Notes under the pieces: generated by a model | The model's database searches: none | What the model was told of the DNA's origin: nothing | Seen by the model: only the letters and a program-made list of their open reading frames with translations | NCBI GenBank assembly: GCA_902589185.1 | Contig: CACIRZ010000002.1 | Location: forward strand, 1 to 64,000 | Direction: 5' to 3' | Source: an uncultured SAR116 cluster alpha proteobacterium | GTDB taxonomy: Bacteria; Pseudomonadota; Alphaproteobacteria; Puniceispirillales; Marisalimonadaceae | Length of the DNA stretch: 64,000 nucleotides | Part shown: positions 40,930-64,000 of the stretch, piece after piece | Position numbering within the stretch: position 1 is the stretch's first letter | How the letters are laid out: each line of letters opens with the position of its first letter | Program-made: the position numbers and the translations under genes

Positions 40930-40952
40930 TATGCAATTAATTTAACTTTTTG

Positions 40953-46646: not shown

Positions 46647-47780
46647 TTGAAAACAAATAATGAAATTATTCCGTGTGTTATCCTAGCAGGAGGAAAAGGA
46701 AGAAGAATGGGTGGAAAAGAAAAAGCCCTTATCAACCTCCTGGATAGACCACTTATCTCTTATGTCTTAGAAAAAGTTTCTGGAAAAGCTGCACCTATTG
46801 CATTAAATATAAATACCAATTACGAAAAATTTCAAAACTTTGGTTACGAAATTCTTGAAGATCCACTAAAAGGACACTTAGGTCCATTAGTTGGCATTTT
46901 AGCTTCCCTAAATTGGGCAAAAAATATAAAGCAAAATTGGGTTCTAACTTTACCTTGTGACACACCTTTTCTCCCAAAAAATTTAATTGAATCTCTAGTA
47001 AAAGCTAAAAATGAAAATCCAAATGTAGATTTAGTTGTTGCAAAATCTAGAGGCTTTAACCATCCTGTAATAGCTTTATGGAAAACTGACAATAATTTAA
47101 TATTAAAAAAAGCAATTGAAGAAGGTATAAGAAAAATTGATATTTTCACATCTCAACTTAAGACTGCCTATGTAAATTTTGATAACATTGACACATCAAA
47201 ATTTGATCCTTTCACAAACCTAAACTCACCTAAGGATTTAATTACTGCAAAGCAAATACTTGGGAAACTTCCACCCATATTTGGTCTTGCTGGTTGGTCT
47301 GGCTCTGGGAAGACAACATTATGTACTAAATTAATAGAAAATTTTACAAAAATTGGAATTAACGTTGGAACTCTTAAACACGCACATCATAAATTTGATA
47401 TAGATAAACCTGGTAAAGATTCATATAACCTTAGAAAAGCTGGAGCTCGACCAATGGTGATTTCATCAAAAGAGAGATTTGCTCTTATTCAAGAAAATGA
47501 CAATGAAGAAGAAAAAAGTTTGTTTGAAATGTTGGAAATTTTTGCCAAAAGTCCATTAAATAAGTGTGATATAATAATAGTCGAAGGTTACAAAAACGAA
47601 AACATTCCAAAACTTGAAGTTTTTAGACGTGAAATTGGTAAAACATTTTTACATGAGGACGATAGTAATATTTTTGCAATAGCTTCAGATGAGAAGTTAA
47701 ATACAGATATTCCCTCATTAGATTTAAACAACATAAGCGCTATAACTGACTTATTAATTAAAAAATTTGAGATTGCTTAA
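46647..47780 (+). CDS. MobA-MobB fusion (molybdenum cofactor guanylyltransferase and GTPase)
   Basis: A 377-residue fusion. The first 205 or so residues are MobA: VILAGGKGRRMGGKEKALI, LPCDTPFLP. It attaches GMP to molybdopterin to make the bis-MGD cofactor. From about residue 208 the MobB domain starts, with Walker A GWSGSGKTT and LKHAHHKFDIDKPGKDS. The start is TTG with GAGG about ten bases upstream. It belongs to the fdhD run; MoeA is on the other strand nearby. Formate dehydrogenase requires exactly this cofactor. Confidence 0.93.
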   Translation: MKTNNEIIPCVILAGGKGRRMGGKEKALINLLDRPLISYVLEKVSGKAAPIALNINTNYEKFQNFGYEILEDPLKGHLGPLVGILASLNWAKNIKQNWVLTLPCDTPFLPKNLIESLVKAKNENPNVDLVVAKSRGFNHPVIALWKTDNNLILKKAIEEGIRKIDIFTSQLKTAYVNFDNIDTSKFDPFTNLNSPKDLITAKQILGKLPPIFGLAGWSGSGKTTLCTKLIENFTKIGINVGTLKHAHHKFDIDKPGKDSYNLRKAGARPMVISSKERFALIQENDNEEEKSLFEMLEIFAKSPLNKCDIIIVEGYKNENIPKLEVFRREIGKTFLHEDDSNIFAIASDEKLNTDIPSLDLNNISAITDLLIKKFEIA

Positions 47781-48458: not shown

Positions 48459-49688
48459 TTATAAGCATCTATGTTCGAAAGGATAAAATTTAAGAAGCTG
48501 TCCTACGTTAACTGTTTCATAATCAATTGGTATTTCTACAATTCCGTCTGCACCAGTTAGTGAAGAAATCACACCCGCTCCTTTCCTTCCATGAATTGAC
48601 AAATAATCCCCATTCTTTTCACTGATTATTTTTGCTCTTAAATACTCTGCCCTACCTTTTCTTTTTTTGTGCTCAAAACCTGAAGGAATTTTGATAGCTA
48701 ATGGTTCTAAATCTACTCCGCCCGCTCGTTTAATTAATAGTGGTTTTATTAATAACTTTGAACAAACAAATGCGGCTACAGGATTTCCTGGTAGACAAAA
48801 AATAATTTTATTTTTCTTTCTTCCAATCGCCATTGGTTTCCCTGGCTTCATAGCTAATTGCCAGACTAAACATTCAGCTCCAACGTCTCTAATTGCATTT
48901 TGCGTGTGATCTTCAACGCCATCTGAAGCACCCCCAGATGAAATTACTACATCACTTTTTGATAAGGCATCATCAAATTTTTTTGCTAACTCATTTCTGT
49001 TGTCTTTTACTATTCCTAAATCATGTATTTTTAAAAATTTGTGATCTAATAATGAAAGTAGCATTGGTTTATTAGAATCATAAATTTGACCTTCTAATCT
49101 ATTTTCTGTTTCAGTTGAAATTAGTTCATCTCCAGTTGAAATTACTGAAACATTTAGTTTTTCATATATATCAATTTTATTATTTCCAGAAGCAGCGAGT
49201 TGCCCAATATCTGCAGCATTGATTAATTTTCCTTTTTTTACAACAACCTCACCCTTTCTTAAATTTTCGCCTATTGGTCTCATGTTTTGACTTTGTTTTA
49301 TTTTGTCATTAATAATCACTTTATTATTTAATCTCTTGCATTTTTCATGCATAACGATCGTATCAACTCCCTCAGGCATTATAGCACCAGTATAAATTTC
49401 AATAGCTTGATGAGGTAAAATATTCTTTTTAAAAGGGTGTCCTGCCTTAGCAACCCCAATAACTTCAAATTCTGTTTTAGGATTATTTATATATGTGTGG
49501 TGTAAAATTCCATAACCATCAACAGCTGAGTTTGCAGTTGAGGGTAAATTTAACCTACTTTTAATTGTTTTATAATTTATACGTTCTTGAGCTTTATGGA
49601 TAAGTGATTGTGTCTTTCCATCTTTTTCAAAAATTGATTCTTTTAAAAGATCTCTTGCAATTTCTAATTTGGTAGGTTTGATTGACAT
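48459..49688 (-). CDS. moeA: molybdopterin molybdenumtransferase MoeA
   Basis: MoeA inserts molybdate (or in some organisms tungstate) into adenylylated molybdopterin. The protein has 409 residues. Signatures are NSAVDGYG near residue 55, GDEL, SGGASDGVEDH and LPGNPVAAFV. It is the last gene of the formate dehydrogenase run and follows the protease gene by six bases. Its convergent neighbour is the oxygenase gene. Whether the metal is Mo or W cannot be read from sequence; a tungstate importer lies 8 kb away. Confidence 0.94.
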   Translation of the reverse strand: MSIKPTKLEIARDLLKESIFEKDGKTQSLIHKAQERINYKTIKSRLNLPSTANSAVDGYGILHHTYINNPKTEFEVIGVAKAGHPFKKNILPHQAIEIYTGAIMPEGVDTIVMHEKCKRLNNKVIINDKIKQSQNMRPIGENLRKGEVVVKKGKLINAADIGQLAASGNNKIDIYEKLNVSVISTGDELISTETENRLEGQIYDSNKPMLLSLLDHKFLKIHDLGIVKDNRNELAKKFDDALSKSDVVISSGGASDGVEDHTQNAIRDVGAECLVWQLAMKPGKPMAIGRKKNKIIFCLPGNPVAAFVCSKLLIKPLLIKRAGGVDLEPLAIKIPSGFEHKKRKGRAEYLRAKIISEKNGDYLSIHGRKGAGVISSLTGADGIVEIPIDYETVNVGQLLKFYPFEHRCL

Positions 49689-49694
49689 AGAATT

Positions 49695-50405
49695 CTATTT
49701 TATCTGACTAGCATATTTATTCAAAAACTTTTCTATTAATTTAATATCAATTGCAAAATTAACTCCAGCGTCAATGTCTGCTTCCTTAGTGTATATAGCG
49801 TCTACCATACCAACCAGTTCACCATCATTATTTAACAAAGGTGCCCCTGAAGCACCAGGATTTACAGCTGCATCTGTTTGAATAAAATCTTCAATTGGGT
49901 TGAATCCCAATCTTGTTCTATTAAGTCCAGATACTATTCCACATGATAAGCTTTGACCTAATCCAAAACTATTACCTATTAGACAAACTTCATTACCATA
50001 TTTTATTTTTTTCTTTGTAACTTTAACACTTTGACCTTTGTTTTTTGATTTTAAAATAGCTATATCAGTTTTAAAGTCAGTCAAAATTACATCAACTTTC
50101 TCTGATTTATTATCATAATTTCTAATTTCTACTACCTTTGCATTTTTAATTACATGCGCAGCTGTAAGTATATATTTTGTCATTTTTTCTTTTTTGTCCA
50201 ATGACAAATAAAATCCTGTACCAGCTGGTGCAGTACCAGGCGGAGCTCCAAAACCGGGTTTATTGTATCCAGGCCAAGTTGGCAAAACAACTACAGTTGA
50301 TTTGTAAACTTTTTCCCATACTTTAGAATAATCGTGAGCAAGGGTACTAAAATTTATTAAGAATATAGTTAAATATAAAACTGATTTAATAGTTTTATTA
50401 ACCAT
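49695..50405 (-). CDS. secreted trypsin-like serine protease
   Basis: A 236-residue exported protease of the S1 trypsin-like type, without a PDZ domain. The signal peptide runs to about residue 22. The triad can be placed at TAAHV (His), TDIAIL (Asp) and PGASGAP (Ser). It resembles the protease core of DegP. Cotranscription with formate dehydrogenase and moeA is odd; it may process or quality-control exported subunits, which is an inference. Confidence 0.82.
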   Translation of the reverse strand: MVNKTIKSVLYLTIFLINFSTLAHDYSKVWEKVYKSTVVVLPTWPGYNKPGFGAPPGTAPAGTGFYLSLDKKEKMTKYILTAAHVIKNAKVVEIRNYDNKSEKVDVILTDFKTDIAILKSKNKGQSVKVTKKKIKYGNEVCLIGNSFGLGQSLSCGIVSGLNRTRLGFNPIEDFIQTDAAVNPGASGAPLLNNDGELVGMVDAIYTKEADIDAGVNFAIDIKLIEKFLNKYASQIK

Positions 50406-50560: not shown

Positions 50561-51910
50561 TTAGTTAGTAGCTTTTTTTAAAAACATTACAAGATCTTGT
50601 CTGTCTTGTATTTTTTTCATTCTTTGTATTGGCATCTTGGTACCTGGCGTTACCTTATCAGGTCCCTCATCAAATAGCCTATTAATACTTTCTTCATTCC
50701 ATATTATATCAGAATCTATTAGAGCTTGTGAATATTTATACCCTTCTAATGTACCAGCCTTACGCCCAAAAATTTTATAAAGTGTAGGACCTGCTCTTTT
50801 TTTTCCATTTTCTACAAGAGTATGACAAACACTGCATTTTCTGGCAAATTGTTTTTCACCATTACTAACCTCTTTTACAGGGTTAAATCTTCTAGCTGGC
50901 CCTGGTCTTTCTAAAAACTTTGGAGGAAAGTCAAATATCTGCCATCTTGTTAAAAAATCGTCAAGACCAGCAACAATTAATGAAGAATCATTAGGAAAAA
51001 GAATATTGTCCCATATTGGTCCATTGACTGCGTTGAAATCTCTGACTAATGACCAATTTTTAGTATCTAATATAATCATTCTACCTTTTGCATTGCCAAA
51101 ACTTAACATATTTTCTTTTTCTAAATAATACATAGATAATATTGGAACTCTATCTTCTTTTATGTTTAAAATAGTCTCATCTTCATCAAATTTATTTATT
51201 TTTATTTGTCCGTCTGTTGAACCAAAAGCTATAAAATTTTGTTTTTCATCTACTTCAAATTTTGAGATGCCCCATCCATTTTTTATTAATGGCCTTACAT
51301 ATTCCCCATTATTTACTTTCCAAAGTTTAATTTCGCCATCATACCCGGAACTATATATATACTTACCATCTTTTGAGTATTTAACTGAGTAAACTGGGCC
51401 TTTATGTCCAACAAGTGAGTGTATTTTTTTTCTTTCTTTTAAATCCCATACTCCTACGGTACCATCCCAACTAGCTGATAATAAAAATTTACCGTCACTT
51501 GAAAACTCCAAATCAGCTATTTTACCCCTATGATTTCCAAGTCTAATTGGTTCTATTTCCTCATTTATTTTATGGATGTCATTTAGTGACCATAGTAAAA
51601 TATTGTTGTCATCCCCACCTGATACTAAAAAATCATTTCTTGGTGAGAATTCAACTGCATTTACTGCAGCATCGTGACCAATCAAAGTAATTTTCTCCTT
51701 AATTGGATTTAAATCCCAAACAACAACAGAATAATCAAAACTGGCACTAGCCATTAGTTTATTATTTGTTGACACAGCTAAACCTTTAACTGGACCACCA
51801 TGGGCAGTGTATTGCTCAATGCTATGTGAGTTTTTCATTATAATTAAAAAAGATATCATAATTAATTTATAAATTACGATATCTTTAATAGAGATTGTCT
51901 TAAAAGGCAT
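50561..51910 (-). CDS. WD40-repeat protein fused to cytochrome c
   Basis: A 449-residue exported protein. After a signal-like N-terminus (hydrophobic to about residue 30) come WD40 repeats to about residue 340, several ending in VVWDL, LLWSL, GVWDL and KLWKV. The last 95 residues are a class I cytochrome c: heme site CSVCH (about 359-363), GPTLYKIFGRKAG, and methionine ligand in GTKMP (about 426). It lies 13 bases after the cytochrome b subunit gene of formate dehydrogenase. It could be a periplasmic electron acceptor or docking scaffold. The role is inferred from context. Confidence 0.88.
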   Translation of the reverse strand: MPFKTISIKDIVIYKLIMISFLIIMKNSHSIEQYTAHGGPVKGLAVSTNNKLMASASFDYSVVVWDLNPIKEKITLIGHDAAVNAVEFSPRNDFLVSGGDDNNILLWSLNDIHKINEEIEPIRLGNHRGKIADLEFSSDGKFLLSASWDGTVGVWDLKERKKIHSLVGHKGPVYSVKYSKDGKYIYSSGYDGEIKLWKVNNGEYVRPLIKNGWGISKFEVDEKQNFIAFGSTDGQIKINKFDEDETILNIKEDRVPILSMYYLEKENMLSFGNAKGRMIILDTKNWSLVRDFNAVNGPIWDNILFPNDSSLIVAGLDDFLTRWQIFDFPPKFLERPGPARRFNPVKEVSNGEKQFARKCSVCHTLVENGKKRAGPTLYKIFGRKAGTLEGYKYSQALIDSDIIWNEESINRLFDEGPDKVTPGTKMPIQRMKKIQDRQDLVMFLKKATN

Positions 51911-51923
51911 TTATTATAATTAT

Positions 51924-52985
51924 TTACTCAGCAGGTTCAGGCTTTGATTTTGACTCTTCTTCTACTTCCTTTGCCCATAAACCATGGTGTTCTTTTGCCC
52001 AATTCTTGTCAACTTCACCACTGTTCATGGCGTCAAGAGCACCTTCCATTCCTACGGAACCTATATAAATATGTGCAATAATCATAATCATTAGACCCAA
52101 GGATACAATTCCATGCCAAACCTGATTATATTGCTGTTCTTGTAAAAGCGTTAAATCAGTTGGCAAACCTAATCCAAGAACATTAAGTAAGGCGAATGTA
52201 TCAGCAAACATTGTAGTTTGAAATGGAAACATTAAGGCAATTCCTGACATGCTAACTGACAGACCCCCAATCATGGTAATCCAAAAAATCATTTTTTGCC
52301 CTGCATTAAATTTTTTTGCTGGTGGATGCACACCTGCTTTAAATATTCCTCCACCCATTTTCAACCATTCCCAATCAACTTTATTTGGTATGTTATGTCT
52401 TACCCACAATACAAATGCTAATGCTAGACCTAACATAAAAGCAAAAGCTAGGTAATTATGAATATATTTGCCACCTATAGTTATTGCTGTAAATATTTCT
52501 GGACCAAAAATAGGCAATAATACATATTTCCCATAAAGCAAATTTAAGCCCGTGAGAGCCAATAAAACAAAAGACCCAGCCATCAGCCAATGGGCAAATC
52601 TATCAATTGCAGCAAATCTTAAGATTGTTTGTCCAGACAGACCAGCATCCACTTTTATTTTACCTCTATACATATAAAAAGCAAAAAGGACACCAATAAT
52701 GGCTAGTAGCCCTAATCCACCATATAGCGTAACCGGACCATTTCTTATTGCTCTCCAATTATCACCTTCTGATTGGATCATCACAGCTGATAATTGATCT
52801 TTCATTTGTGTAGATCCAGCATTCCCTGTTCTAATATAGCGCCACAAGTCAGCATCAGATTTTAATCCCAATGTGTTACCTGGAACCTCGCCTTTAACTT
52901 GTGCAATTGATGAGTTTGGATTTGTTACAAACGTAAGACTAATGACAAATACCATAGTAAATGCAATAACCAGTTTCCTAACCAT
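51924..52985 (-). CDS. formate dehydrogenase cytochrome b (gamma) subunit
   Basis: A 353-residue membrane subunit. After a signal peptide and a periplasmic region (to about 85) come a transmembrane helix and then the four-helix di-heme b core found in FdoI/FdnI-type subunits. The core includes RFAHWLMAGSFVLLALTGLNL, GKYIHNYLAFAFMLGL and WHGIVSLGLMIMIIAHIYIG, with histidines available as heme ligands. It anchors the enzyme and passes electrons to quinone or to the cytochrome c partner. It is extended at the N-terminus relative to E. coli FdnI. The C-terminal tail is charged. Confidence 0.9.
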   Translation of the reverse strand: MVRKLVIAFTMVFVISLTFVTNPNSSIAQVKGEVPGNTLGLKSDADLWRYIRTGNAGSTQMKDQLSAVMIQSEGDNWRAIRNGPVTLYGGLGLLAIIGVLFAFYMYRGKIKVDAGLSGQTILRFAAIDRFAHWLMAGSFVLLALTGLNLLYGKYVLLPIFGPEIFTAITIGGKYIHNYLAFAFMLGLALAFVLWVRHNIPNKVDWEWLKMGGGIFKAGVHPPAKKFNAGQKMIFWITMIGGLSVSMSGIALMFPFQTTMFADTFALLNVLGLGLPTDLTLLQEQQYNQVWHGIVSLGLMIMIIAHIYIGSVGMEGALDAMNSGEVDKNWAKEHHGLWAKEVEEESKSKPEPAE

Positions 52986-52998
52986 TAATTCTCTCCTC

Positions 52999-53196
52999 TT
53001 AATTACTTCTTTGTCTTGAAGTATGCATCTTTAGTTTATTTACTTGTTCTTTAGTTAGACTAGCGTCTTTTTTACCTAAATACACACCTTTTTTATAATT
53101 TAATATTCTTCCTTGTTCCTCTTGGCATGAACTTAATACCAAAGATGCTAGAAAGATTGAGATAACTATAATTGTTTTATTAATTTTAATCATCAC
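52999..53196 (-). CDS. small lipoprotein of the formate dehydrogenase operon
   Basis: A 65-residue lipoprotein. The lipobox LVLSSC places the modified cysteine at residue 24, leaving a mature part of about 41 residues rich in lysine, with KKGVYLGKKDASL. It begins 13 bases before the cytochrome b gene and about 30 bases after an intrinsic terminator. Small proteins at this position occur in related formate dehydrogenase operons as far as I recall. Function unknown; membrane tethering of the complex is a guess. Confidence 0.7.
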   Translation of the reverse strand: MMIKINKTIIVISIFLASLVLSSCQEEQGRILNYKKGVYLGKKDASLTKEQVNKLKMHTSRQRSN

Positions 53197-53264: not shown

Positions 53265-53855
53265 TTAACCTTTTAATTGGTATGCAGTTCCCCAACCCCA
53301 AGCACCAGATCCGAAGCCACGAGCAACCACTCTTTCTCTAAAGATATCAGCTACTTCATCTCCGTCTCCAGCAAGCAAGGCCTTAGTTGAACACATCTCT
53401 GCACATGAAGGTAATTTACCTTCTGCAAGTCTGTTGCGTCCATACTTTTGGAACTCTAACTCACCCATGTCTGTTTCAGGTCCCCCTGCACAGAATGTAC
53501 ATTTGTCCATCTTCCCTCTAGAACCATAATTTCCAGCTTGTGGAAATTGAGGAGCTCCAAAAGGACATGCATAGAAGCAGTAACCACAACCGATACATAG
53601 ATCTTTAGAGTGTAATACAACACCTTGGTCTGTCTGATAAAAACAGTCCACTGGGCATACCGCCATACATGGTGCATCTGAACAATGCATGCAAGCAACA
53701 GAGATTGATCTTTCTCCTGGCTTTCCATCTTGTATTGTTACAACTCTTCTTCTGTTTATTCCCCATGGTACCTCATGTTCATTCTTACATGCTGTTACAC
53801 AGGCGTTACACTCAATACATCTTTCTGCATCGCATAAGAATTTCATTCGTGCCAT
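53265..53855 (-). CDS. formate dehydrogenase iron-sulfur (beta) subunit
   Basis: A 196-residue electron-transfer subunit of the DMSO reductase family. Cysteine groups for four [4Fe-4S] clusters are visible: CIECNACVTAC, CMHCSDAPCMAVC, CIGCGYCFYAC and CTFC with CAEMC. It carries electrons from the catalytic subunit to the cytochrome b subunit on the periplasmic side. It has no own signal and would be exported bound to the Tat-targeted alpha subunit. It begins 13 bases after the alpha gene. GGAGGG precedes the ATG. Confidence 0.93.
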   Translation of the reverse strand: MARMKFLCDAERCIECNACVTACKNEHEVPWGINRRRVVTIQDGKPGERSISVACMHCSDAPCMAVCPVDCFYQTDQGVVLHSKDLCIGCGYCFYACPFGAPQFPQAGNYGSRGKMDKCTFCAGGPETDMGELEFQKYGRNRLAEGKLPSCAEMCSTKALLAGDGDEVADIFRERVVARGFGSGAWGWGTAYQLKG

Positions 53856-53868
53856 TTTTAAGCCCTCC

Positions 53869-56760
53869 TTAAGCTAGTTCAATTTGACACAATGAGCACT
53901 TTGTCTCTTGCATCTGCGTTACTGAGTCATATCCATAAGTCATAGCAGTGTTTGCTGCTTCACCTAATACATAAGGATCTGCACCTTCTGGATACTTAGA
54001 TCTAAGATCTTTTCCTTCCATATGACCTCCAAAGTGGAAAGGTAAGAAAGCTACGCCTTTGGCAACACGCTCTGTTACCATTGCCATAACTTTAATTCTT
54101 GCACCCTCTGGAGTTGCAACCCAAACCATTGCACCATTTCTAATTCCTTTTGAATTGGCATCAAATGGATTGATTTCTACAAACATATCCTGTTGTAGTT
54201 CAGCAAGCCATGGATTTGATCTTGTTTCATCTCCACCACCTTCGTACTCAACCAGTCTTCCGGAAGTAAGAATCATTGGGTATTTTACAGAATGATCTAC
54301 ATCCTGAATAGACTTATATAGAGTTGGAAGTCTATATGCCATTCTATCAGAATACGTAGGATAATCTGCTACAAGATCTCTTCTTGAAGTATAAAGCGGC
54401 TCTCTATGCAACGGAATTGGATCTGGGAATGTCCAAACAACAACCCTTGCTTTAGCATTTCCAAATGGGGCACAACCATGCTTAATAGCAACCCTTTGGA
54501 TACCACCAGATAAGTCAACTTTCCAGTTTGCCTTATCACCTCCAACTTTTGCAATTGCAGCTTTTTCCTTTGCTGTTAAATCTTTATCCCAACCAAGTTT
54601 TTTAAGCATAGCCATTGTAAATTGTGGATAACCATCTTTAATTTCAGAACCTACTGGATACGAACCTTCAGCTAATAAATTTTTACCTTTGTGTTCAACA
54701 CCAAATCTAGCTCTAAAACATAGTCCACCTTCTGCCACTGGCTTGGATGTATCATAAAGCAAAGGAGTACCTGGATGTTTCATCTCTGGATTACCCCAAC
54801 AAGGCCAAGGTAAACCATAGTAATCACCATCAACTTCTCCACCAACAGCTTGTAAGGTTGTTTTATCAAAGACATGTTGATTCTTCATGTGCGCTTTAAG
54901 TCTTTCTGGTGATTGACCAGTGTAACCTATAGTCCACATACCACTATTAAACTCTTTAGTGACGTCTTCAATATATGGTTCATCATTTGTTACTTTAATA
55001 TTTCTAAACATACGATCTGCAAAACCAAACTTTTTTGCAAACTTATATATAATTGTATGATCAGGAAGCGAATCAAATGATGGTTCAATTACCTTTTCTC
55101 TCCATTGAAGTGATCTGTTGGATGCTGTAACAGAACCATATGTTTCAAACTGAGTAGTTGATGGAAGTAAATAAACTCCATCTGTCCTATCAGATAAAAC
55201 AGCAGATACTGTTGGATATGGATCAATCACAACCATAAGGTCTAATTTCTCCATAGCAACCTTCATTTCTTTCATTCTTGTTTGAGAGTTTGGAGCATGT
55301 CCCCAAAATACCATTGCCTTAAGGTTGTCCGGCTGTTCAATATTTTCTTTCTTTTCAAGAACTCCATCAATCCACCTTGAGACAGGTATACCTTTCTGGT
55401 TCATCATACTCTTGGTTTTACCATCCTTACCTTTCATTGAAGAAAATCTGGCTTTTATCCAATTATAATCTTCACCCCATACTCTAGACCAATGCTTCCA
55501 AGCACCTGCTGAAAGTCCATAATATCCCGGTAATGAATGAGATAATATGCAAAAATCAGTTGCGCCCTGAACATTATCATGACCACGGAAGATATTTGCA
55601 CCACCACCAGCAGTACCCATGTTACCTAAAGCTAGCTGAAATGCGCAATATGCTCTTGTGTTATTATTTCCATTGGTATGCTGAGTTCCACCCATACACC
55701 AAATGAAAGTACCAGGTCTATTATTTGCCATAAGTTTAGCAACTCTCTTTAGCTGAGATCCAGGAACACCAGTAACTCTTTCAGTTTCTTCTGGATTCCA
55801 CTTCTTAACTTCAGCTCTAACTTCGTCCATTCCATAGACGCGTTGCCTTATGAATTCTTTATCTTCCCATTTATTTTCGAAGATATGCCACATAATTCCC
55901 CAGATTAGGGCCACGTCTGAACCTGGACGAAATCTTACAAATTCGTCAGCGTGCGCTGCGGTTCTTGTAAATCGAGGATCACAAACTATTAACGGAGCAT
56001 TATTCTGCTCTTTAGCTTTCATTAAATGCATTAGAGAAACTGGATGCGCTTCGGCTGGATTTCCACCAATAATAAACATAGCTTTTGAGTTATGAATATC
56101 ATTGTAAGAATTAGTCATTGCCCCGTAACCCCAGGTATTTGCAACACCTGCAACAGTTGTTGAGTGACAAATTCTTGCTTGGTGATCACCGTTGTTTGAA
56201 CCCCAATATGCATAAAATTTTCTAAATAAGTAGGATTGCTCATTATTAAATTTTGCGGAGCCTAGCCAATATACAGAATCTGGACCTGATGTTTTCCTGA
56301 TGGATTCCATCTTGTCTCCGATTTCATTAATGGCATCATCCCATGACATTCTTGTCCATTTACCACCAACAAGCTTCATGGGATATTTTAATCTTCTCTC
56401 TCCACTTGCTGTCTCTCTTACTGATGCACCTTTGGCACAATGCGCGCCTAGGTTTATTGGGCTATCCCAACCTGGCTCTTGACCTGTCCAAACACCATTT
56501 TGGACTTCTGCCATTACTGTACATCCAACTGAACAATGTGTACAAACTGTTTTTTTCATAGACACTGCAGAATTAGAATATGAAGCTTGTGCTGGCTTAA
56601 CATTAGAGCCTGCTAAAGCTGCAGCAGTAGCTAAACCACCTACTGCCAATCCTGAACCCTTCAAAAAAGTACGTCTGTCGACAACTTTTTCTGAAGTTTT
56701 ACCGATGAAAGATGAAGTTTGGGAGCCTATCGCCACCCCTTGCGTCTTCTTTCTAAGCAT
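53869..56760 (-). CDS. formate dehydrogenase catalytic (alpha) subunit, Tat-exported, cysteine type
   Basis: The bis-MGD catalytic subunit, 963 residues. A Tat signal with DRRTFLKGSG has its arginine pair at about 29-30. The [4Fe-4S] cysteines lie at about 73, 76, 80 and 108 (CTHCSVGC). The metal ligand is cysteine 198 in RICHS, where E. coli FdnG has selenocysteine; no in-frame TGA is used. GAMTNSYNDIHNSK and GGNPAEAHPVS follow, as in formate dehydrogenases. It oxidises formate in the periplasm. Tungsten or molybdenum could be the metal; a tungstate importer lies in the same island. AGGAGG precedes the ATG. Confidence 0.95.
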   Translation of the reverse strand: MLRKKTQGVAIGSQTSSFIGKTSEKVVDRRTFLKGSGLAVGGLATAAALAGSNVKPAQASYSNSAVSMKKTVCTHCSVGCTVMAEVQNGVWTGQEPGWDSPINLGAHCAKGASVRETASGERRLKYPMKLVGGKWTRMSWDDAINEIGDKMESIRKTSGPDSVYWLGSAKFNNEQSYLFRKFYAYWGSNNGDHQARICHSTTVAGVANTWGYGAMTNSYNDIHNSKAMFIIGGNPAEAHPVSLMHLMKAKEQNNAPLIVCDPRFTRTAAHADEFVRFRPGSDVALIWGIMWHIFENKWEDKEFIRQRVYGMDEVRAEVKKWNPEETERVTGVPGSQLKRVAKLMANNRPGTFIWCMGGTQHTNGNNNTRAYCAFQLALGNMGTAGGGANIFRGHDNVQGATDFCILSHSLPGYYGLSAGAWKHWSRVWGEDYNWIKARFSSMKGKDGKTKSMMNQKGIPVSRWIDGVLEKKENIEQPDNLKAMVFWGHAPNSQTRMKEMKVAMEKLDLMVVIDPYPTVSAVLSDRTDGVYLLPSTTQFETYGSVTASNRSLQWREKVIEPSFDSLPDHTIIYKFAKKFGFADRMFRNIKVTNDEPYIEDVTKEFNSGMWTIGYTGQSPERLKAHMKNQHVFDKTTLQAVGGEVDGDYYGLPWPCWGNPEMKHPGTPLLYDTSKPVAEGGLCFRARFGVEHKGKNLLAEGSYPVGSEIKDGYPQFTMAMLKKLGWDKDLTAKEKAAIAKVGGDKANWKVDLSGGIQRVAIKHGCAPFGNAKARVVVWTFPDPIPLHREPLYTSRRDLVADYPTYSDRMAYRLPTLYKSIQDVDHSVKYPMILTSGRLVEYEGGGDETRSNPWLAELQQDMFVEINPFDANSKGIRNGAMVWVATPEGARIKVMAMVTERVAKGVAFLPFHFGGHMEGKDLRSKYPEGADPYVLGEAANTAMTYGYDSVTQMQETKCSLCQIELA

Positions 56761-56791: not shown

Positions 56792-56980
56792 TTAGAACCT
56801 AGCGGTTTCATAATAAGTTTTTACATGCTTTGTTTTCTGGTAGCGTGAACCAGTAGTATTTAAAGTCTCATTTGCAGAGGCTGTCTTATTAACAGTTGCA
56901 GCTACAGTTGCAGCAGCAGCTGTGATTGCAGCACCTTTCAAAAAGTCTCTTCTGCCTTTTTTAGATTTATCAATCTTCAT
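56792..56980 (-). CDS. formate dehydrogenase-region Tat-target peptide
   Basis: A protein of 62 residues with a twin-arginine motif GRRDFLKGAA near its start and an alanine-rich stretch, then a short tail containing KHVKTYYETARF. It matches the small 'formate dehydrogenase region TAT target' family found next to such enzymes. The ATG at 56980 is chosen because AAGGAG lies just upstream; a longer frame to 57019 has no support. It lies between the chaperone gene and the alpha subunit gene. Role unknown. Confidence 0.82.
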   Translation of the reverse strand: MKIDKSKKGRRDFLKGAAITAAAATVAATVNKTASANETLNTTGSRYQKTKHVKTYYETARF

Positions 56981-57037
56981 TTTACTCTCCTTAATATACA
57001 GCTCAATTATATGAGCCAATGAAACAGGGGCCTATCG

Positions 57038-57670
57038 CTACCCCGAGACATCCATTGAGAACGATGAACGTTCAATTTCCATAAACTCTTTACCAATAGT
57101 TCCAATTGGCGAATAAAATACCGCTATTTTAGAACTTTCTATATCTCTCATAAGCAGATCAACCCAAGGGGCTAAGTGCTTGTTAAAAAAATCTCTTTGT
57201 TCTGCAATTGAGAATTTCTTATTAAACTTACCTGTAATTAAACCAGCCATCATATCAAATATACTAGCTATGTGATCTTCTGGCTCTTTAACATTGTCTT
57301 CTAACTTAATACCAATGCTTTCCATGTCCTGCCTTAGCTTTGCAAGAGGTTTATCTTTTAAAAATCCAGTTAAATAGTAGGAAGCAAATGGGAGTATTTC
57401 TCCTCTACCAACACCCACAAAAATGCTAACGTACTCATCTCTAATGGTAGGGAGATCAAGAGATGAAGCTAATTTAGAGAGTGTTTTAATGGATTTTCCA
57501 ATGGGAGAATCATCTGATTCAAGAACTTTTAATTGATTGATTAATTCTAAATTAGGCTCTGATCTGAAAAGATTCGCTAAAAAAGAATACATATCAGCTC
57601 GCAACTGATCTTCTTCATTAATATTTTCAACGATTTTGGCGTTAATAGAACTCAAACTTATATCTCCCAA
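57038..57670 (-). CDS. TorD/DmsD-family chaperone
   Basis: A cytoplasmic helical chaperone of about 205-210 residues for a molybdo/tungsto-enzyme subunit carrying a Tat signal. Features are the RADMYSFLANLFRSEP start and EPEDHIASIFDMMAGL, then FFNKHLAPWVDLLMRDI. The likely client is the catalytic subunit. The start is uncertain: TTG at 57670 lacks a ribosome binding site, whereas TTG at 57655 has GGGAG eight bases upstream. It heads the main formate dehydrogenase run. Confidence 0.88.
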   Translation of the reverse strand: MGDISLSSINAKIVENINEEDQLRADMYSFLANLFRSEPNLELINQLKVLESDDSPIGKSIKTLSKLASSLDLPTIRDEYVSIFVGVGRGEILPFASYYLTGFLKDKPLAKLRQDMESIGIKLEDNVKEPEDHIASIFDMMAGLITGKFNKKFSIAEQRDFFNKHLAPWVDLLMRDIESSKIAVFYSPIGTIGKEFMEIERSSFSMDVSG

Positions 57671-57780: not shown

Positions 57781-58563
57781 TTATTGATCATCGGTATCAA
57801 TTTTTTTTGGCTTAAACACCATATTTTGGGGCTTTGGTTTACGTTCAACATGTTCCAAAGAAGCTTGTTTTTCCTTATTTTCGTCAGTTGATTGTTCTTT
57901 AAAATTTTCTGCCTCAATTATTTTTTTTCCATTTTGAGAAGTTTCTTTATTTTCTTTATTAAAAATTTGTTTTGGTTCTTCATTTTTAATTTTTTCTATA
58001 TTTTTTTTCTCAGATATTTTTTTAATTTTCTTCGTATTTTTTTTATCTAAAGAAGCATTTTTAGAAATCAAGGATACGTTCTCTTTGTTTTCTTCTTTCT
58101 CATTACTTTCATTTTTATCTTCAATCAAATCTGATAAATAACCCTTACCAACCTTATAAGCTGTCTCCATACCCTCAATTACAGTAGCTGCATCCGTAAA
58201 ATCTTCGTGATAATCATTAATTTCAGCATCAGCAAATCTTATTATTGGATTTAATCTCCACACTCTACGTAAAGCTATTTGACGCAACCTATCAGGCACG
58301 CCCTTTTTAAAAAATACATCTAGTGACTTTTCTGTTTTTATTTTTTCAGGATTTGGAAGATTATATTTTTTTAATAACTCTTCATCGTTTAGCTTATCAT
58401 TTTCTTCATCCAAAGATGATTGATTTTCTCTTTCTGTTGAGCTTTCTGGGTCTATCTGTTTAGAATTAGAGTTTTCTATTTGAGTTTTTTGTTTAGACTT
58501 TTTCTTAGACCATCTAGATAAGAAATTTTCCTCTAATTCTTTCTTTTCTTCTTCCATTTTCAA
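57781..58563 (-). CDS. DUF3306 family protein
   Basis: A 260-residue protein of a family linked to formate dehydrogenase in proteobacteria. The N-terminal FLSRWSKKK and the conserved VPDRLRQIALRRVWRLNP followed by INDYHEDFTD are the family core (to about residue 135). The remainder is a low-complexity lysine/glutamate/asparagine region of more than 100 residues, probably disordered. Function unknown. It is downstream of DUF3305 in one operon. A TTG start is used, with ATG two codons further on. Confidence 0.82.
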   Translation of the reverse strand: MKMEEEKKELEENFLSRWSKKKSKQKTQIENSNSKQIDPESSTERENQSSLDEENDKLNDEELLKKYNLPNPEKIKTEKSLDVFFKKGVPDRLRQIALRRVWRLNPIIRFADAEINDYHEDFTDAATVIEGMETAYKVGKGYLSDLIEDKNESNEKEENKENVSLISKNASLDKKNTKKIKKISEKKNIEKIKNEEPKQIFNKENKETSQNGKKIIEAENFKEQSTDENKEKQASLEHVERKPKPQNMVFKPKKIDTDDQ

Positions 58564-58583
58564 TTTTACCTATCAATAAATCA

Positions 58584-59195
58584 TTAATTATAATAATTTT
58601 TCTTGAGTCTTTGGTCTCCACCTCTACGGATATTCTCATCAATATTTTTTTTATCCCTTTTTCTTTTTTTAAATTCTTCAGGATGAAAATGCACACCTAC
58701 AAACTTGTTTAATAATTCAGCTATGGGGCCATATAATGGAACCTTTTCAACTTTATCCTCACCACAATCTTCATAATCTTGAATGTTGTAGGGAGAAAGT
58801 GACACTTCAGCCAAATGAATATCTATACCGTTATTTTCATTATCTACTTCTTCGTTATCGTCTAATAAGTCTCCATCTCTTAAAACTATGTATATTGAAG
58901 GATCTGAAGACTGAAGGTTTTCAGCATAACCTTCTGCTTCTGCACGATGTAAATCAATTGAAGCATCTGCAACATATAAGTTTTTGTTCTCATCACCTTT
59001 AGATATAGTATCATTTACTAAGGGACGAATCCTTACGTCATTAATTGGTGGATGACCTTCTCCACTAGTTACATTAAGTGGAATCAAATCATTCACCACC
59101 CATTGATGGTTTTCCCATAAATTATCGATCTCTTTTTTTTCAAAAATAATTCTTACTGCATATAAAAGATGTTTGTTATCTTCTAAATTTATCAT
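58584..59195 (-). CDS. DUF3305 family protein
   Basis: A 203-residue protein of the DUF3305 family, commonly beside DUF3306 and formate dehydrogenase. The N-terminal VRIIFEKKEIDNLWENHQW resembles the family opening. The middle has acidic stretches (DDNEEVDNENN) and a VSLSPYNIQDYEDCG segment. The C-terminus is basic. A GAGGG site precedes the ATG. It diverges from the poly-ferredoxin gene over about 150 bases. Function unknown; an assembly role is inferred. Confidence 0.8.
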   Translation of the reverse strand: MINLEDNKHLLYAVRIIFEKKEIDNLWENHQWVVNDLIPLNVTSGEGHPPINDVRIRPLVNDTISKGDENKNLYVADASIDLHRAEAEGYAENLQSSDPSIYIVLRDGDLLDDNEEVDNENNGIDIHLAEVSLSPYNIQDYEDCGEDKVEKVPLYGPIAELLNKFVGVHFHPEEFKKRKRDKKNIDENIRRGGDQRLKKNYYN

Positions 59196-59344
59196 ATTCC
59201 CTCAATTATATAATCAATAAATAAGTGAGTTAGATAACAACATTAAAGGCAAAAAAACAAACTAATTTTTTTTGGTTTTAAGAAATTAATTGACATTATT
59301 GAACATTTAAATAAGTTCGGGTGTCATTCTTGGGAGATTGCTTT

Positions 59345-61375
59345 TTGGAAATAGTTAATAATAATATTCTTGTTTGTAATTGTGAAAACACGATGAAAAT
59401 AGATGAAGACGCATTGTCAAAATCTTGCAAATTGGAAAAAAAATGTAAAGTGTACAGTAATCTTTGTGGTTCTGAATTAGATACTGTTTCAGAACAAATG
59501 ACCTTAAGCAATGAAGAAAATAAAGAATTATTAATTGCATGCACTCAACAAGAAGAAGTTTTTGAAAAACTTGCAGAAGAAAATAATTTTCAAGCACCTA
59601 AAACTTTTAACATTAGAGAATACGCAGGATGGTCTAAAGAAGGTGAAAAAACTATTCCTAAGATGGCTGCGTTAATAAATTCATCTGTGAAAAAAATTGT
59701 TAAAACACCCAGTTTAACGCTAAATTCTACAGGAAGGTGTTTTGTCTACGCTAATTATAAAAACGGTGATAACTCACTTGAAGTTGCCTACGACTTTTGT
59801 AAAAAGTTAAATCAACATTTAGGCGTTACCCTAATGATAACTAACTGTGAAGAAGAAGTTATATTAGAGCCTCAAAATTTTAAAATAACGAAAGGAAATA
59901 TAAGTAAAGCTCAAGGATATTTTTCTCAATTTAAACTTGAAATAAACGACTTTTCAGAAGCTCTTCCTAACAGTAAATCAAATATTGAATTTGGGGAATA
60001 TTTTAAATCTGTAGATACTGAATGTGATATTATAATAGACCTCAGTGAAAACACACCTATGTTTACGGGTGACCATAAACGTGATGGTTATTTTAGAGCA
60101 AGTACAAACAGCCCAAAAGATTTACTAGAAATTTTTGCAAAATCAATTGATATGATTGGTGAGTTTGAAAAACCAATTTACGTAAATTTTAATGATAGCT
60201 TATGTGCACATTCTAGAAATGAAAAATCTGGATGTTCAAAATGTTTAGACGTTTGTCCTGCAAGTGCAATTCAGACCTCCGGTGATGTTGTTTCTGTTGA
60301 TCCAGGTATATGTGGAGGCTGTGGTTTTTGTGGCTCTGTTTGTCCCTCTGGGGCAATTCAAACGGATTATCCTAGTCTTGAAATTATGCTAGGTGATTTA
60401 TCAAATCTACATGATGACTTTATTAAAGCGGGAGGCAAGAACCCTGCCTTGCTCTTATTTGACAATAATTTTGGTAACGAAATGATTAACCTTCTTTCTA
60501 GATATGGCAGCGGATTACCTGCAAATCTTATTCCATACTCAATGCATTCAGTTGGTAGAGCTGGACATGATCTTATGGTATCAGCGATTGCAATTGGATT
60601 TAAAAAAATATTTATATTTGTAGATCCAAAAAATATTGAAGAATTTGATTTTTTGCCAAAACAAATTGAGTTAGCCAATGCTTTACTTTCTGGAATTGCA
60701 AAAAATGAAAATAACTCAATTATAATGATTGAAGAAAATGATCCTGAAAAAATAGAAGAAATTATTTATGAAAAAAATGGTTATACTAAGATAAAATCAT
60801 CTTCTTTTATTGCGGTTGGCGCACCTAGAGGGATTTTAAGAACAGGAATACAAGGTTTATCTAAAAGTAATAAAAATAAACAAGAAATTATACCTTTACC
60901 TGATAATTCCCCCTACGGGATTGTTAATGTAAATACCGAGAGTTGTACAATTTGTCTATCTTGTGTAAGTGCATGTCCAGCTGGTGCTCTACAAGACAAC
61001 CCAGAATCACCACAGTTACTATTCAGAGAAGATGCTTGTTTGCAATGTGGTATATGCGTTGCAACATGTCCTGAAAAAGCAATATCTCTTACATCACAAT
61101 TTAACTTAAGTGATGACGCAATGTCCGCAAAAGTAATTATTGAAGACCAACCCTTCGACTGTACAGTTTGCGGAAAAACTTTTGGATCTAAAAAATCAAT
61201 AGAAAGAATAATTGAAAAACTATCTGCACACACAATGTTTGAAAAAGAAGGCAGAACCGATATGCTTAAAATGTGTGAGGACTGCCGTGTGGGAGCAATG
61301 TTTAAAGAAAATGATAAATTGCTTGATACAAAAGACAGACCTAAACCAAGAACAACTGATGATTATTTAAACTAG
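59345..61375 (+). CDS. large poly-ferredoxin (4Fe-4S) protein of the fdh cluster
   Basis: A protein of about 676 residues with at least four ferredoxin-type motifs: CSKCLDVCP, CGGCGFCGSVCP, CTICLSCVSACP and CLQCGICVATCP. Between the second and third lies an alpha/beta domain (NPALLLFDNNFG to LLSGI) resembling hydrogenase iron-sulfur/HdrA-like modules. At the end a CTVCGKTF with CEDC may bind zinc. N-terminally ILVCNCENTM is a family signature. Start TTG 59345 has GGGAG eight bases upstream; GTG 59321 is the alternative. Probably cytoplasmic, role unproven. Confidence 0.82.
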   Translation: MEIVNNNILVCNCENTMKIDEDALSKSCKLEKKCKVYSNLCGSELDTVSEQMTLSNEENKELLIACTQQEEVFEKLAEENNFQAPKTFNIREYAGWSKEGEKTIPKMAALINSSVKKIVKTPSLTLNSTGRCFVYANYKNGDNSLEVAYDFCKKLNQHLGVTLMITNCEEEVILEPQNFKITKGNISKAQGYFSQFKLEINDFSEALPNSKSNIEFGEYFKSVDTECDIIIDLSENTPMFTGDHKRDGYFRASTNSPKDLLEIFAKSIDMIGEFEKPIYVNFNDSLCAHSRNEKSGCSKCLDVCPASAIQTSGDVVSVDPGICGGCGFCGSVCPSGAIQTDYPSLEIMLGDLSNLHDDFIKAGGKNPALLLFDNNFGNEMINLLSRYGSGLPANLIPYSMHSVGRAGHDLMVSAIAIGFKKIFIFVDPKNIEEFDFLPKQIELANALLSGIAKNENNSIIMIEENDPEKIEEIIYEKNGYTKIKSSSFIAVGAPRGILRTGIQGLSKSNKNKQEIIPLPDNSPYGIVNVNTESCTICLSCVSACPAGALQDNPESPQLLFREDACLQCGICVATCPEKAISLTSQFNLSDDAMSAKVIIEDQPFDCTVCGKTFGSKKSIERIIEKLSAHTMFEKEGRTDMLKMCEDCRVGAMFKENDKLLDTKDRPKPRTTDDYLN

Positions 61376-62364
61376 GAAGAATTAGATAAAGGTAAATTAG
61401 TTAAAATATTTTGAGGTTTAAATTGGATTTTTGAATTTTCATTCATTGCCAAACCTACATATACAGGCTTATCAATCATCTCCTTTACAAATCCCTGATC
61501 AGAATCAAGTTGAAACAAACATAAAATCTGTTTTAATCTTTCTTCGTCAACCTCCAATCCATGATAGAGATCATTTAATATTTTATTAGAATTGCTGTCT
61601 AACCCAAGATGCCAAGACCATTTTTCATCTTCAATTTTTTGCATTGGTTTTATTGAAACATCGATAGAAAGAAAATGATTAATCCATTTTTCAATTACTC
61701 GAGCCAACGCATCTAAGCCTGGTTTAGTGTAAGCAAGATCAATGGATGTATCAAATTTATCTGATCTACCCCAATAATTGTCAGCAGAGCTTTCTCTTAA
61801 AATATCTATGTCAACCTCAAATTGTTTTGGATCATTTACTTTAGTGATTTTTTTCTCAGCTTGAAGTTGAACTGTCGCTTCATCTGCGACCATTATTTCA
61901 TCCTCAGCAATAGTAACAACTTGGGTTCTAAAGAATATTTCTGAAGCTCTAACTTGCATAGGATAAGATGTTTCATTAAGTATATTTCTTAAAATGATTT
62001 GTACCATTTGGTCCACAAAAAGAGGTGGAAAATTTACAGACTGACCTCTAGCTATTGCTAAATATGCAGCATCTAATGTTGAATAATTAGATAAAAAATC
62101 TCTAAATTTTAATATTACTTCATAATTAAAAATTACGTCTTTGTCTTTAATTGAGTTAAGTTCTTTTTTTTCAACTAGAGCAAAAGGTTTATCAACCAAT
62201 TTTTTATGCAGGTTAGTTTCAGCCTCACATGATTCTTCAATTGGTATAACCTCAGGTCTATAGAAATATGCTCGCATAAAGTCTTCAGTAGGAACTAGAT
62301 GACCCTCATCATTTTGATCTAACAAATGCCAACCAGAAGTTAACCAAAAATCGTTTTTAACCAT
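61372..62364 (-). CDS. DUF6352 family protein
   Basis: A 330-residue protein of a family seen beside formate dehydrogenase in proteobacteria. The opening DFWLTSGWHLL and FMRAYFYRPEV are characteristic. No catalytic motif or signal peptide is visible. It ends overlapping the convergent poly-ferredoxin gene by four bases. It is the last gene of a tightly packed run with DUF6505, the lipoate-ligase-like gene and mrp. Function unknown. Confidence 0.8.
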   Translation of the reverse strand: MVKNDFWLTSGWHLLDQNDEGHLVPTEDFMRAYFYRPEVIPIEESCEAETNLHKKLVDKPFALVEKKELNSIKDKDVIFNYEVILKFRDFLSNYSTLDAAYLAIARGQSVNFPPLFVDQMVQIILRNILNETSYPMQVRASEIFFRTQVVTIAEDEIMVADEATVQLQAEKKITKVNDPKQFEVDIDILRESSADNYWGRSDKFDTSIDLAYTKPGLDALARVIEKWINHFLSIDVSIKPMQKIEDEKWSWHLGLDSNSNKILNDLYHGLEVDEERLKQILCLFQLDSDQGFVKEMIDKPVYVGLAMNENSKIQFKPQNILTNLPLSNSS

Positions 62365-62380
62365 TAATTAATTCCCCGAT

Positions 62381-62860
62381 TTAACTCTCATCAACAAAAG
62401 TCCATATTTTTTGTTCTGCACATGAATCAGCTTTAGGGAGATTTCTAAATTTTTCCTTAATTCCGTCAGTTTCCCAAGTTCTTGACAGACTCAAAAGACT
62501 TCCTGTTTCATGATTTTTACACAAATCTAACATGAAATTAATTTCTTCATTAGCAGCTTCTTCAGCCATCTCTTGGGATGGAGCTCCAAAATTATCTATT
62601 AAGAATTTACCTAAATTTGTTTTTAATTGCTGTAATTCTTTTTCCTTTATATTTACTAAACTAACTAATGTACTATACCCAAAAGTTGTACAACCCATAA
62701 ATCCATTTGAAAAAGCTTGCTTTACCTTACCCTTTAAGTCGTCTTGCTTTAAATTATAAAAGTTAAATGTGCCAACTATAGCTAACTCACCTTCTTCAGA
62801 AGCCAAGGGGAAAATATTTAAATCAGATTTGTCGAAACGAATTGTTTTTGCAAACTTCAT
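62381..62860 (-). CDS. DUF6505 family protein
   Basis: A 159-residue protein of the DUF6505 family. The N-terminal KTIRFDKSDLNIFPLASEEG is the family hallmark, followed by GELAIVGTFNFY. Two cysteines (about 56 and 115) are not in a recognisable motif. Its start overlaps the stop of the lipoate-ligase-like gene by four bases, so the two are translationally coupled. Function unknown; always found, as I recall, near formate dehydrogenase genes. Confidence 0.8.
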   Translation of the reverse strand: MKFAKTIRFDKSDLNIFPLASEEGELAIVGTFNFYNLKQDDLKGKVKQAFSNGFMGCTTFGYSTLVSLVNIKEKELQQLKTNLGKFLIDNFGAPSQEMAEEAANEEINFMLDLCKNHETGSLLSLSRTWETDGIKEKFRNLPKADSCAEQKIWTFVDES

Positions 62861-63621
62861 CTTAAATTTATATCTCCAATTTCTTTTGTTATTTCAATTG
62901 GTGATAAGAATATTTCTTTATTCTTAAATTTGACAATAGCTAATCCATTTTCGTCTAACCCAACCCATGATACTGTTTCTTTATTTTTTAATGTCAGCTC
63001 TTTATTTTGTTCTCTTCTGGAATTCCACATATCTACAACTGGTTTAAACCCTTCATCCTCCCATTGACTAATCCAAGCTAGAAAATGCCTTGATAAAGAT
63101 TCAACAGCTCTTGTTCTAGAAACAAAACCAGCACCTTCATCTGCAAGAGATGTTATGTCTGGTTGAATATTGTTTTCATCCATCTGAAGCTGGTTATTTA
63201 GTCTCAATTTTAATCCAACCACCATCCAGTCAGGAACAGTATCTTCATTGGCTGAGGAAGAAACTTCAATTTTTACTAAACCAGCCTCACCTTGATTCAA
63301 AAAAATCAACCCTGGATAAGAATAAGAAACCACTACTTCAGGAGGAGCGAGTGATCCAATTGAGTCACCAGCTGCAACCATCATTACATACAAAATTTGA
63401 TTACATTTAATCTTTTTAACTTCTGGATTTAAAACTACAGCTAATTCTACAAATTCTGTACTCTCTGAATAAAATACTGTCCCTGCTTCACTGTTTGTAG
63501 CTGCAGAAATAGCCTTATTAAAGACTTCGATTTTATCTGGTACCGCAACCGGAGTTAAAATTGGTGGTAAAAGCGGTGGGTCATTATCGTCTGCTGGATC
63601 AAGTTCATAATATAAACTCAT
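62857..63621 (-). CDS. biotin/lipoate protein ligase-like protein with DUF4444
   Basis: A 254-residue member of the biotin/lipoate A/B ligase superfamily, with a C-terminal DUF4444-type domain (WVGLDENGLAIVKF). The lipoate-ligase motif RRxxGGGxVxH is not present; the corresponding region reads GTVFYSESTEFVELAVVL. It may therefore bind an acyl or other cofactor without the normal ligase chemistry. It overlaps both neighbours by four bases. The product attached, if any, is unknown. Confidence 0.75.
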   Translation of the reverse strand: MSLYYELDPADDNDPPLLPPILTPVAVPDKIEVFNKAISAATNSEAGTVFYSESTEFVELAVVLNPEVKKIKCNQILYVMMVAAGDSIGSLAPPEVVVSYSYPGLIFLNQGEAGLVKIEVSSSANEDTVPDWMVVGLKLRLNNQLQMDENNIQPDITSLADEGAGFVSRTRAVESLSRHFLAWISQWEDEGFKPVVDMWNSRREQNKELTLKNKETVSWVGLDENGLAIVKFKNKEIFLSPIEITKEIGDINLR

Positions 63622-64000
63622 ACTAACTCCTCTTCATCTATTTTAACAGACTTGATAATAGCCTTTGCAATATTTCTATAATTTTTAGATTGAACTGATT
63701 TTGGCTCAGAAATTATTATAGGAATACCTGAATCGGAACTCTTTCTTACCTGAGAACTTATTGGTATTTCACCTAACATTTCAATCCCTCTTTTTTTTGC
63801 CTCAGCTTTTACGCCACCTTCACCAAAAATATGATCTATTCTACCACAATCTGGACAAGACCAATATGACATATTTTCAATCATTCCTAACACTGGAACA
63901 TTCGCTTTTTGAAACATTGTTAAAGCTTTAACAACATCTAGCAATGCTATATCTTGAGGAGTGGATACTATGACAGCGCCTGCTAGATTTACTTGCTGAG
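63618..64000 (-). CDS. mrp: Mrp/NBP35-type Fe-S carrier ATPase, 5' end outside window
   Basis: The C-terminal 128 or so residues of an Mrp/ApbC P-loop ATPase that carries iron-sulfur clusters. Visible are PQDIALLDVVKAL, VLGMIENMSYWSCPDCG with the cluster-binding C-x-x-C, and FGEGG followed by LGEIPI. The frame stays open to the window edge, so the start is beyond 64000. Heading the run with DUF6505 and DUF6352, it could serve cluster assembly for formate dehydrogenase, although Mrp is often a general factor. Confidence 0.9.
   Translation of the reverse strand, partial: QQVNLAGAVIVSTPQDIALLDVVKALTMFQKANVPVLGMIENMSYWSCPDCGRIDHIFGEGGVKAEAKKRGIEMLGEIPISSQVRKSSDSGIPIIISEPKSVQSKNYRNIAKAIIKSVKIDEEELV

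Follow-up and report, generated by a model that had tools for sequence, protein, structure and literature searches.

What is the function of the genes packed beside a formate dehydrogenase in an uncultured alphaproteobacterium of the SAR116 cluster? The question is raised by the first 64,000 nucleotides of contig CACIRZ010000002.1 (assembly GCA_902589185.1; this whole stretch is referred to here as the window), in which an initial annotation made from the sequence alone listed genes for DUF3305, DUF3306, a large poly-ferredoxin, DUF6352, DUF6505, a lipoate ligase-like protein and an Mrp-type carrier at positions 57781-64000. All seven are present, each with a clear family match and with strong Pfam scores. 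These satellite genes are part of a larger island at 39.4-64.9 kb that also contains Tup-like genes, FdhD, MobAB, MoeA, a TorD-type chaperone, a small protein with a signal for twin-arginine translocation (Tat), and fdhABC genes of the FDH3 type (Table 1). The Tup-like, FdhD, MobAB and MoeA genes, at 39.4-49.7 kb, had been left unconnected to the satellites. We think it likely that the satellites are a dedicated, cytoplasmic biogenesis system that acts in trans on the FDH3 enzyme, a periplasmic formate dehydrogenase that uses cysteine (Cys) and probably tungsten.

Association with one enzyme type

The repeated association with formate dehydrogenase that the initial annotation had pointed out is borne out by phylogenetic profiling against fdh types, the check it had proposed, and applies to the FDH3 type only. 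With FdhA type defined at no less than 60% identity, DUF3306 occurs in 20/20 genomes with an FDH3 FdhA and in 0/150 others in a sample of 170 genomes of the phylum (Fisher p = 2e-26). A sample of 190 genomes of the class, a few of them shared with the first, gives 29/29 and 1/161 (Fisher p = 2e-33). These Fisher values ignore relatedness; in the five families with both states DUF3306 and FdhA match exactly, and shuffling within families gives p = 2e-4. In the class sample 25 of the 26 genomes with DUF6352 also have FDH3, as do 18 of the 19 in which DUF6505 scores above its cut-off; the departures come from G176, whose genome is fragmented, and from G277, where the match is weak and divergent. 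The ligase-like protein belongs to a subfamily of PF16917 that scores above 165 bits in 13 genomes, all with FDH3, followed by one at 96, which also has FDH3, and then by one at 58. The whole of PF16917, present in 105/170 genomes, was too widespread to serve as a marker. The association is thus far beyond chance and near-perfectly specific for enzyme type (FDH3, the type of the Shewanella FdhA), which is narrower than "formate dehydrogenase", and frequent occurrence of the satellites without a formate dehydrogenase was not seen in these samples.

The single genome of the class sample with DUF3306 outside the FDH3 group (G283, 98% complete) carries an FdhD-MobA-DUF3305-DUF3306 cluster facing a poly-ferredoxin gene (locus L137), and fdh was not found in it. 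A DUF3305-DUF3306 pair also lies on an Azospirillum oryzae plasmid (L153), where Tn7-like transposition genes are about 5 kb away and no fdh is close by. In the fragmented genome (G176), in which FDH3 was not found, a small contig has a TupA-like gene immediately next to DUF6352 (L138, 1899-3813).

Gene neighborhoods divide the set in two. DUF3305, DUF3306 and TorD are found in all 20 fdh neighborhoods and the poly-ferredoxin in 19, its gene lying 33 kb from fdh in the remaining genome (G016). The ligase-like protein and DUF6505 are present in 13/20 and DUF6352 in 9/20, and the Mrp gene adjoins that of the ligase-like protein in the window and in six other loci. Five loci (L102, L103, L107, L108 and L110) have no members beyond TorD, DUF3305, DUF3306 and the poly-ferredoxin. 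From these counts we therefore distinguish these four as a core from an extension module.

Physical linkage to fdh is not needed for the association. Second FDH3-like fdhABC copies in two genomes (L142 in G339 and L143 in G315) have no satellites alongside, and in G234 fdh and the satellites share a contig but are 37 kb apart. The satellites would therefore act in trans, which argues against subunits of fixed stoichiometry. DUF6352 or DUF6505 also lies far from fdh in G016, G019 and G315, with DUF6352 elsewhere in the genome in all three. Passive hitchhiking, in which genes of unrelated roles travel with fdh on a mobile island, could draw on the occurrence of the island on plasmids in Rhodobacterales and rhizobia, but is highly improbable given the trans arrangement and given that the satellites track FDH3 even where unlinked (G016, G019, G315 and G234) and do so in several classes or lineages of the phylum.

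A proposed route of enzyme maturation

The window FdhB is a member of the FDH3 beta family, and the FdhA reading frame is uninterrupted by in-frame stop codons in the window and in high-identity relatives, indicating Cys and not selenocysteine (Sec). FdhA matches Shewanella oneidensis FdhAB (PDB 9VAP) with 1398.6 bits (phmmer) and is of the same enzyme type. The accessible part of a review that covers this enzyme describes a Cys-W, O2-tolerant formate dehydrogenase with four clusters in FdhB and makes no mention of accessory proteins (PMC13397495). This kinship and the Tup-like genes are the basis on which the metal of FDH3 is probably tungsten. FdhD, MobA, MobB, MoeA and Tup-like genes are linked to the satellites in the window and in relatives, and such groupings recur on plasmids of Sulfitobacter, Bradyrhizobium, Sinorhizobium meliloti, Microvirga, Pseudosulfitobacter and Tateyamaria, where most carry the NCBI name FDH3. 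One NCBIfam model, NF011058, describes a MobA-DUF3305 fusion. A hydropathy and motif scan of simple design found a Tat signal in FdhA and no Tat motif, signal or transmembrane segment in the satellites, all of which are predicted to be cytoplasmic.

Because the satellites are predicted to be cytoplasmic and the enzyme is exported, and because the satellites are linked to cofactor synthesis and fdh copies are served in trans, maturation would take place before Tat export. From gene content, co-occurrence, predicted location, linkage to cofactor genes and sharing in trans, we infer this function and each step of the following route. The Tup-like proteins would import the oxyanion, MoeA and MobAB would make the bis-molybdopterin guanine dinucleotide (bis-MGD) cofactor, and the single-Cys FdhD would carry it to apo-FdhA or FdhAB held by DUF3305, DUF3306 and TorD, which would receive the cofactor. 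The HdrA-like poly-ferredoxin could provide low-potential electrons, Fe-S clusters or both, with which five [4Fe-4S] sites would be filled and the metal center reduced, assisted in many lineages by Mrp, the ligase-like protein, DUF6505 and DUF6352. Finished FdhAB would then be exported by Tat and dock on FdhC.

The initial annotation left the choice between a maturation and an electron-transfer system, and included a cytoplasmic redox branch; maturation is the better supported, and compartments make the redox branch less likely. In such a branch the poly-ferredoxin and its partners would couple to formate oxidation and exchange electrons with ferredoxin or NAD. The poly-ferredoxin would be suitably equipped, with four [4Fe-4S] clusters predicted, a fifth probable in its HdrA-like N terminus and a CxxC pair at the C terminus. 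HdrA itself partners formate dehydrogenase in known complexes of methanogens. We nevertheless regard this explanation as unlikely, since FdhA is exported and the satellites carry neither an export nor a membrane signal, so that from a separate compartment they could not touch mature FdhA. There is also no conserved NAD- or flavin-binding partner, the FAD glycine motif of HdrA has been lost, the HdrA-like part is absent from gamma-type versions, and the linkage to FdhD and MobA fits poorly with a redox branch.

Less probable still is a role in stress, repair or quality control, in which the satellites would protect, reactivate or degrade precursors of the enzyme, or sense metal status, without being needed for assembly. 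O2 tolerance is reported for this enzyme type (PMC13397495), and a trypsin-like protease gene adjoins the window locus; however, no conserved presence of the protease was found, and the linkage is to cofactor synthesis. The strict one-to-one presence with the enzyme suggests a need, as opposed to an optional benefit.

Several considerations weigh against the biogenesis function proposed here. No genetic or biochemical data on the DUF proteins were found in the literature. A Shewanella FdhAB of this type is reported to have been expressed and its structure solved as a dimer (PMC13397495); the accessible part of that review does not state the host, and production without satellites is possible. 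In C. necator, fitness on formate is unaffected in mutants of the membrane formate dehydrogenases (fdh, fdo) (PMC11540253), where the soluble enzyme masks the outcome. DUF6352, DUF6505, Mrp and the ligase-like protein are missing from many FDH3 genomes and therefore are not universally required. The Tup-like proteins fall below NCBIfam equivalog cut-offs (TupA-like, 219.6 bits versus 400 for NF041772; TupB-like, 193.7 versus 320 for NF041773), although these are their best or only named matches, and for that reason tungsten is a metal that we infer.

If the kit does load FDH3, the consequences are practical as well as mechanistic. O2-tolerant Cys-W formate dehydrogenases are sought for CO2 reduction and their metal-loaded production in other hosts is a bottleneck, so the genes to transfer along with the enzyme would now be named. 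A strict and testable role would be given to the widespread DUF3305, DUF3306, DUF6352, DUF6505 and 3bfm families, and a reason suggested for how FDH3 bacteria manage without FdhE.

Relation to FdhE and other known systems

FdhE is required for periplasmic formate dehydrogenase in E. coli (PMC10609526). It is present in 17/170 genomes of the phylum sample, in each of the 11 genomes whose FDH-N-like match contains TGA (Sec type), and in 0/20 FDH3 genomes, among which the window genome is 62% complete. Four families hold members of both kinds. Taken by itself, the mutual exclusion of FdhE and FDH3 does not reach significance (p 0.23); the paired association does. FdhD is found in 20/20 FDH3 genomes (in the window, 149.6 bits to TIGR00129 against a cut-off of 140.9), with a TSGCxxG or TTGCxxG loop that contains one Cys, and not the CxxC of the E. 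coli protein, in 15/15. Single-Cys and Cys-free FdhD proteins are known, and another sulfuration route has been suggested for the Cys-free ones (PMC10609526); the FDH3-linked FdhD possibly uses a different sulfur donor. The FDH3 set thus resembles the E. coli-type FdhD and FdhE pathway (FDH-N/O) in serving a Tat-exported bis-MGD Fe-S enzyme, in the presence of FdhD and in its predicted cytoplasmic action before export, and differs in the one loop Cys and in having DUF3305, DUF3306, TorD and the poly-ferredoxin in the place of FdhE.

A more specific version of the biogenesis proposal, which we hold only tentatively, is that periplasmic formate dehydrogenases are served by two alternative and interchangeable kits. 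One would be FdhD with FdhE for the Sec enzyme. The other would be the single-Cys FdhD, TorD, DUF3305, DUF3306 and a flavin-less, HdrA-derived poly-ferredoxin for Cys-W FDH3, with the ligase-like protein, DUF6505, DUF6352 and Mrp as additions, the poly-ferredoxin reductively activating or loading the metal cofactor before Tat export. We speculate that the C-terminal site of the poly-ferredoxin replaces the iron sites of FdhE.

A TorD-family gene is beside fdhA in every FDH3 locus, a likeness to the NarJ/TorD/DmsD chaperones (redox enzyme maturation proteins) and to C. jejuni FdhM, whereas the DUF proteins and the poly-ferredoxin are not of the NarJ family; the DUF proteins gave no match to PF02613 (NarJ/TorD). 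Bay et al. in 2015 placed DUF3305, DUF3306, fer4 and fdh-Tat genes near fdh operons linked to NarJ-family chaperones and gave no function (PMC4464133). The set had been called undescribed, which holds for function, as our literature search returned no paper assigning one to any DUF of the FDH3 set, no paper naming DUF6352 or DUF6505, and nothing on DUF4444 or DUF6494; it does not hold for the linkage, partly known since that study. The enzyme-type specificity, the split with FdhE, the trans arrangement, the kinship to HdrA and the assignment of the ligase-like protein as a pseudo-ligase are new.

Satellite proteins and layout of the locus

The poly-ferredoxin is a distant relative of HdrA as judged by alignment. 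Its N-terminal 160 residues match HdrA alone in the PDB (E 1e-4), C19, C21, C49 and C74 are invariant in the full-length members aligned, and the N-terminal domain and a ferredoxin module both align with methanogen HdrA. Unlike HdrA, it has a replacement of the FAD glycine motif GxGxxG in the aligned segment and has gained a ferredoxin module and the C-terminal CxxC site. The cysteines of the two ferredoxin modules and of the C-terminal CxxC...CxxC are invariant in 16/16 sequences, except for one first-module Cys in short versions. In these gamma-type proteins, which are about 550-575 aa long (L102, L103, L107 and relatives), the HdrA-like part is missing. PF02662 (FlpD/MvhD) matched weakly between the ferredoxin modules in one member (E 0.06-0.09) with no counterpart in the PDB, and the middle region could not be identified as FlpD/MvhD.

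The ligase-like protein is clearly a member of the family of PDB 3bfm (E 2e-91), a structure deposited with no assigned function, and shares the fold of the BirA/LplA/LipB ligases. It differs from them in that the active-site lysines are absent and the nucleotide-loop region is not conserved in 12/12 sequences, and is therefore probably not a ligase. DUF3306 combines a conserved motif with a charged, low-complexity half, features fitting an adaptor. Sequence searches of the PDB with DUF6352, DUF3305 and DUF6505 gave only noise, and although AlphaFold modeled DUF6352 and DUF3305 with confidence, Foldseek found no PDB match at E 0.001 for either model (best VIA Z 2.5 and 2.2). The weak structural match of DUF3305 to 2we7 (Z 2.2) was set aside.

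The four-base overlaps said to join the satellite genes are found at the Mrp/ligase-like and ligase-like/DUF6505 junctions and, tail to tail, between DUF6352 and the poly-ferredoxin gene; gaps of 16 bases (DUF6505/DUF6352) and 20 bases (DUF3305/DUF3306) separate others. A single operon is ruled out by the opposite strand of the poly-ferredoxin gene, and the set therefore comprises at least two transcription units. The window end cuts the Mrp gene, which is complete in the contig (361 aa); a DUF6494 gene comes next, at contig bases 64696-64935.

Table 1. Genes of the FDH3 island, with positions in the window (pLDDT, predicted local distance difference test)
Feature	Position	Strand	Evidence or comment
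TupC-like ABC transporter ATPase	39446..40177	-	ABC_tran; beside TupB-like permease; homologue beside cluster in several relatives
TupB-like tungstate permease	40170..40871	-	NF041773 TupB below cut-off; NF038017 permease above cut-off
TupA-like tungstate-binding protein, signal peptide	40950..41768	+	sole NCBIfam match TupA NF041772
Helix-turn-helix and PBP-like domain protein, possible metal-responsive regulator	44430..45296	-	PF12728 and PF12727; between Tup-like genes and FdhD
FdhD, cofactor sulfurtransferase/chaperone	45750..46634	+	PF02634 E 1.6e-72; single-Cys loop TSGCAVG
MobA-MobB fusion (bis-MGD synthesis)	46647..47780	+	TIGR02665 and TIGR00176 above cut-off
MoeA (metal insertion into molybdopterin)	48459..49688	-	MoeA_N, MoCF_biosynth, MoeA_C
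Trypsin-like (Deg-type) protease	49695..50405		beside MoeA; not found as conserved part of the locus
WD40 propeller-class I cytochrome c fusion, exported	50561..51910	-	recurrent locus member
FdhC, cytochrome b gamma subunit	51924..52985	-	TIGR01583 above cut-off
Small putative lipoprotein between fdhB and fdhC	52999..53196	-	hydrophobic N terminus; homologues in several relatives
FdhB, FDH3 beta subunit (4Fe-4S)	53265..53855	-	NF038355 FDH3_beta 339.4 bits, cut-off 240
FdhA, Cys-type catalytic subunit, Tat signal (RRTFL)	53869..56760	-	closest solved structure 9VAP
Small Tat-signal protein, "formate dehydrogenase region TAT target"	56792..57019	-	TIGR02811 52.1 bits, cut-off 48.45
TorD/NarJ-family chaperone	57038..57670	-	PF02613; in 20/20 loci
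DUF3306	57781..58563	-	PF11748 E 4.5e-17; N-terminal FLSRWSRRK-type motif conserved; C-terminal half charged, low-complexity
DUF3305	58584..59195	-	PF11749 E 8.5e-25; model pLDDT 82
Poly-ferredoxin, 684 aa	59321..61375	+	HdrA-like N terminus, two double 4Fe-4S modules, C-terminal CxxC...CxxC
DUF6352	61372..62364	-	PF19879 E 9e-113; model pLDDT 88
DUF6505	62381..62860	-	PF20115 E 2.6e-50
BirA/LplA-like protein (3bfm family), without catalytic lysines	62857..63621	-	BPL_LplA_LipB_2 PF16917 E 3.4e-58
Mrp/NBP35-type Fe-S carrier	63618..64000, on to contig base 64703	-	ParA/Mrp PF10609 E 2.3e-36

Cytochrome c genes of the FDH3 loci suggest a periplasmic cytochrome c as the electron partner. The WD40-cytochrome c gene adjoins fdhC in the window and is present in many FDH3 loci, and a different cytochrome c of 250 aa is encoded between the poly-ferredoxin and Mrp genes in some relatives (L104, L106, L109 and L111). 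The small Tat protein, 75 aa with no cofactor domain, is beside FDH3 in every locus sampled in the phylum set.

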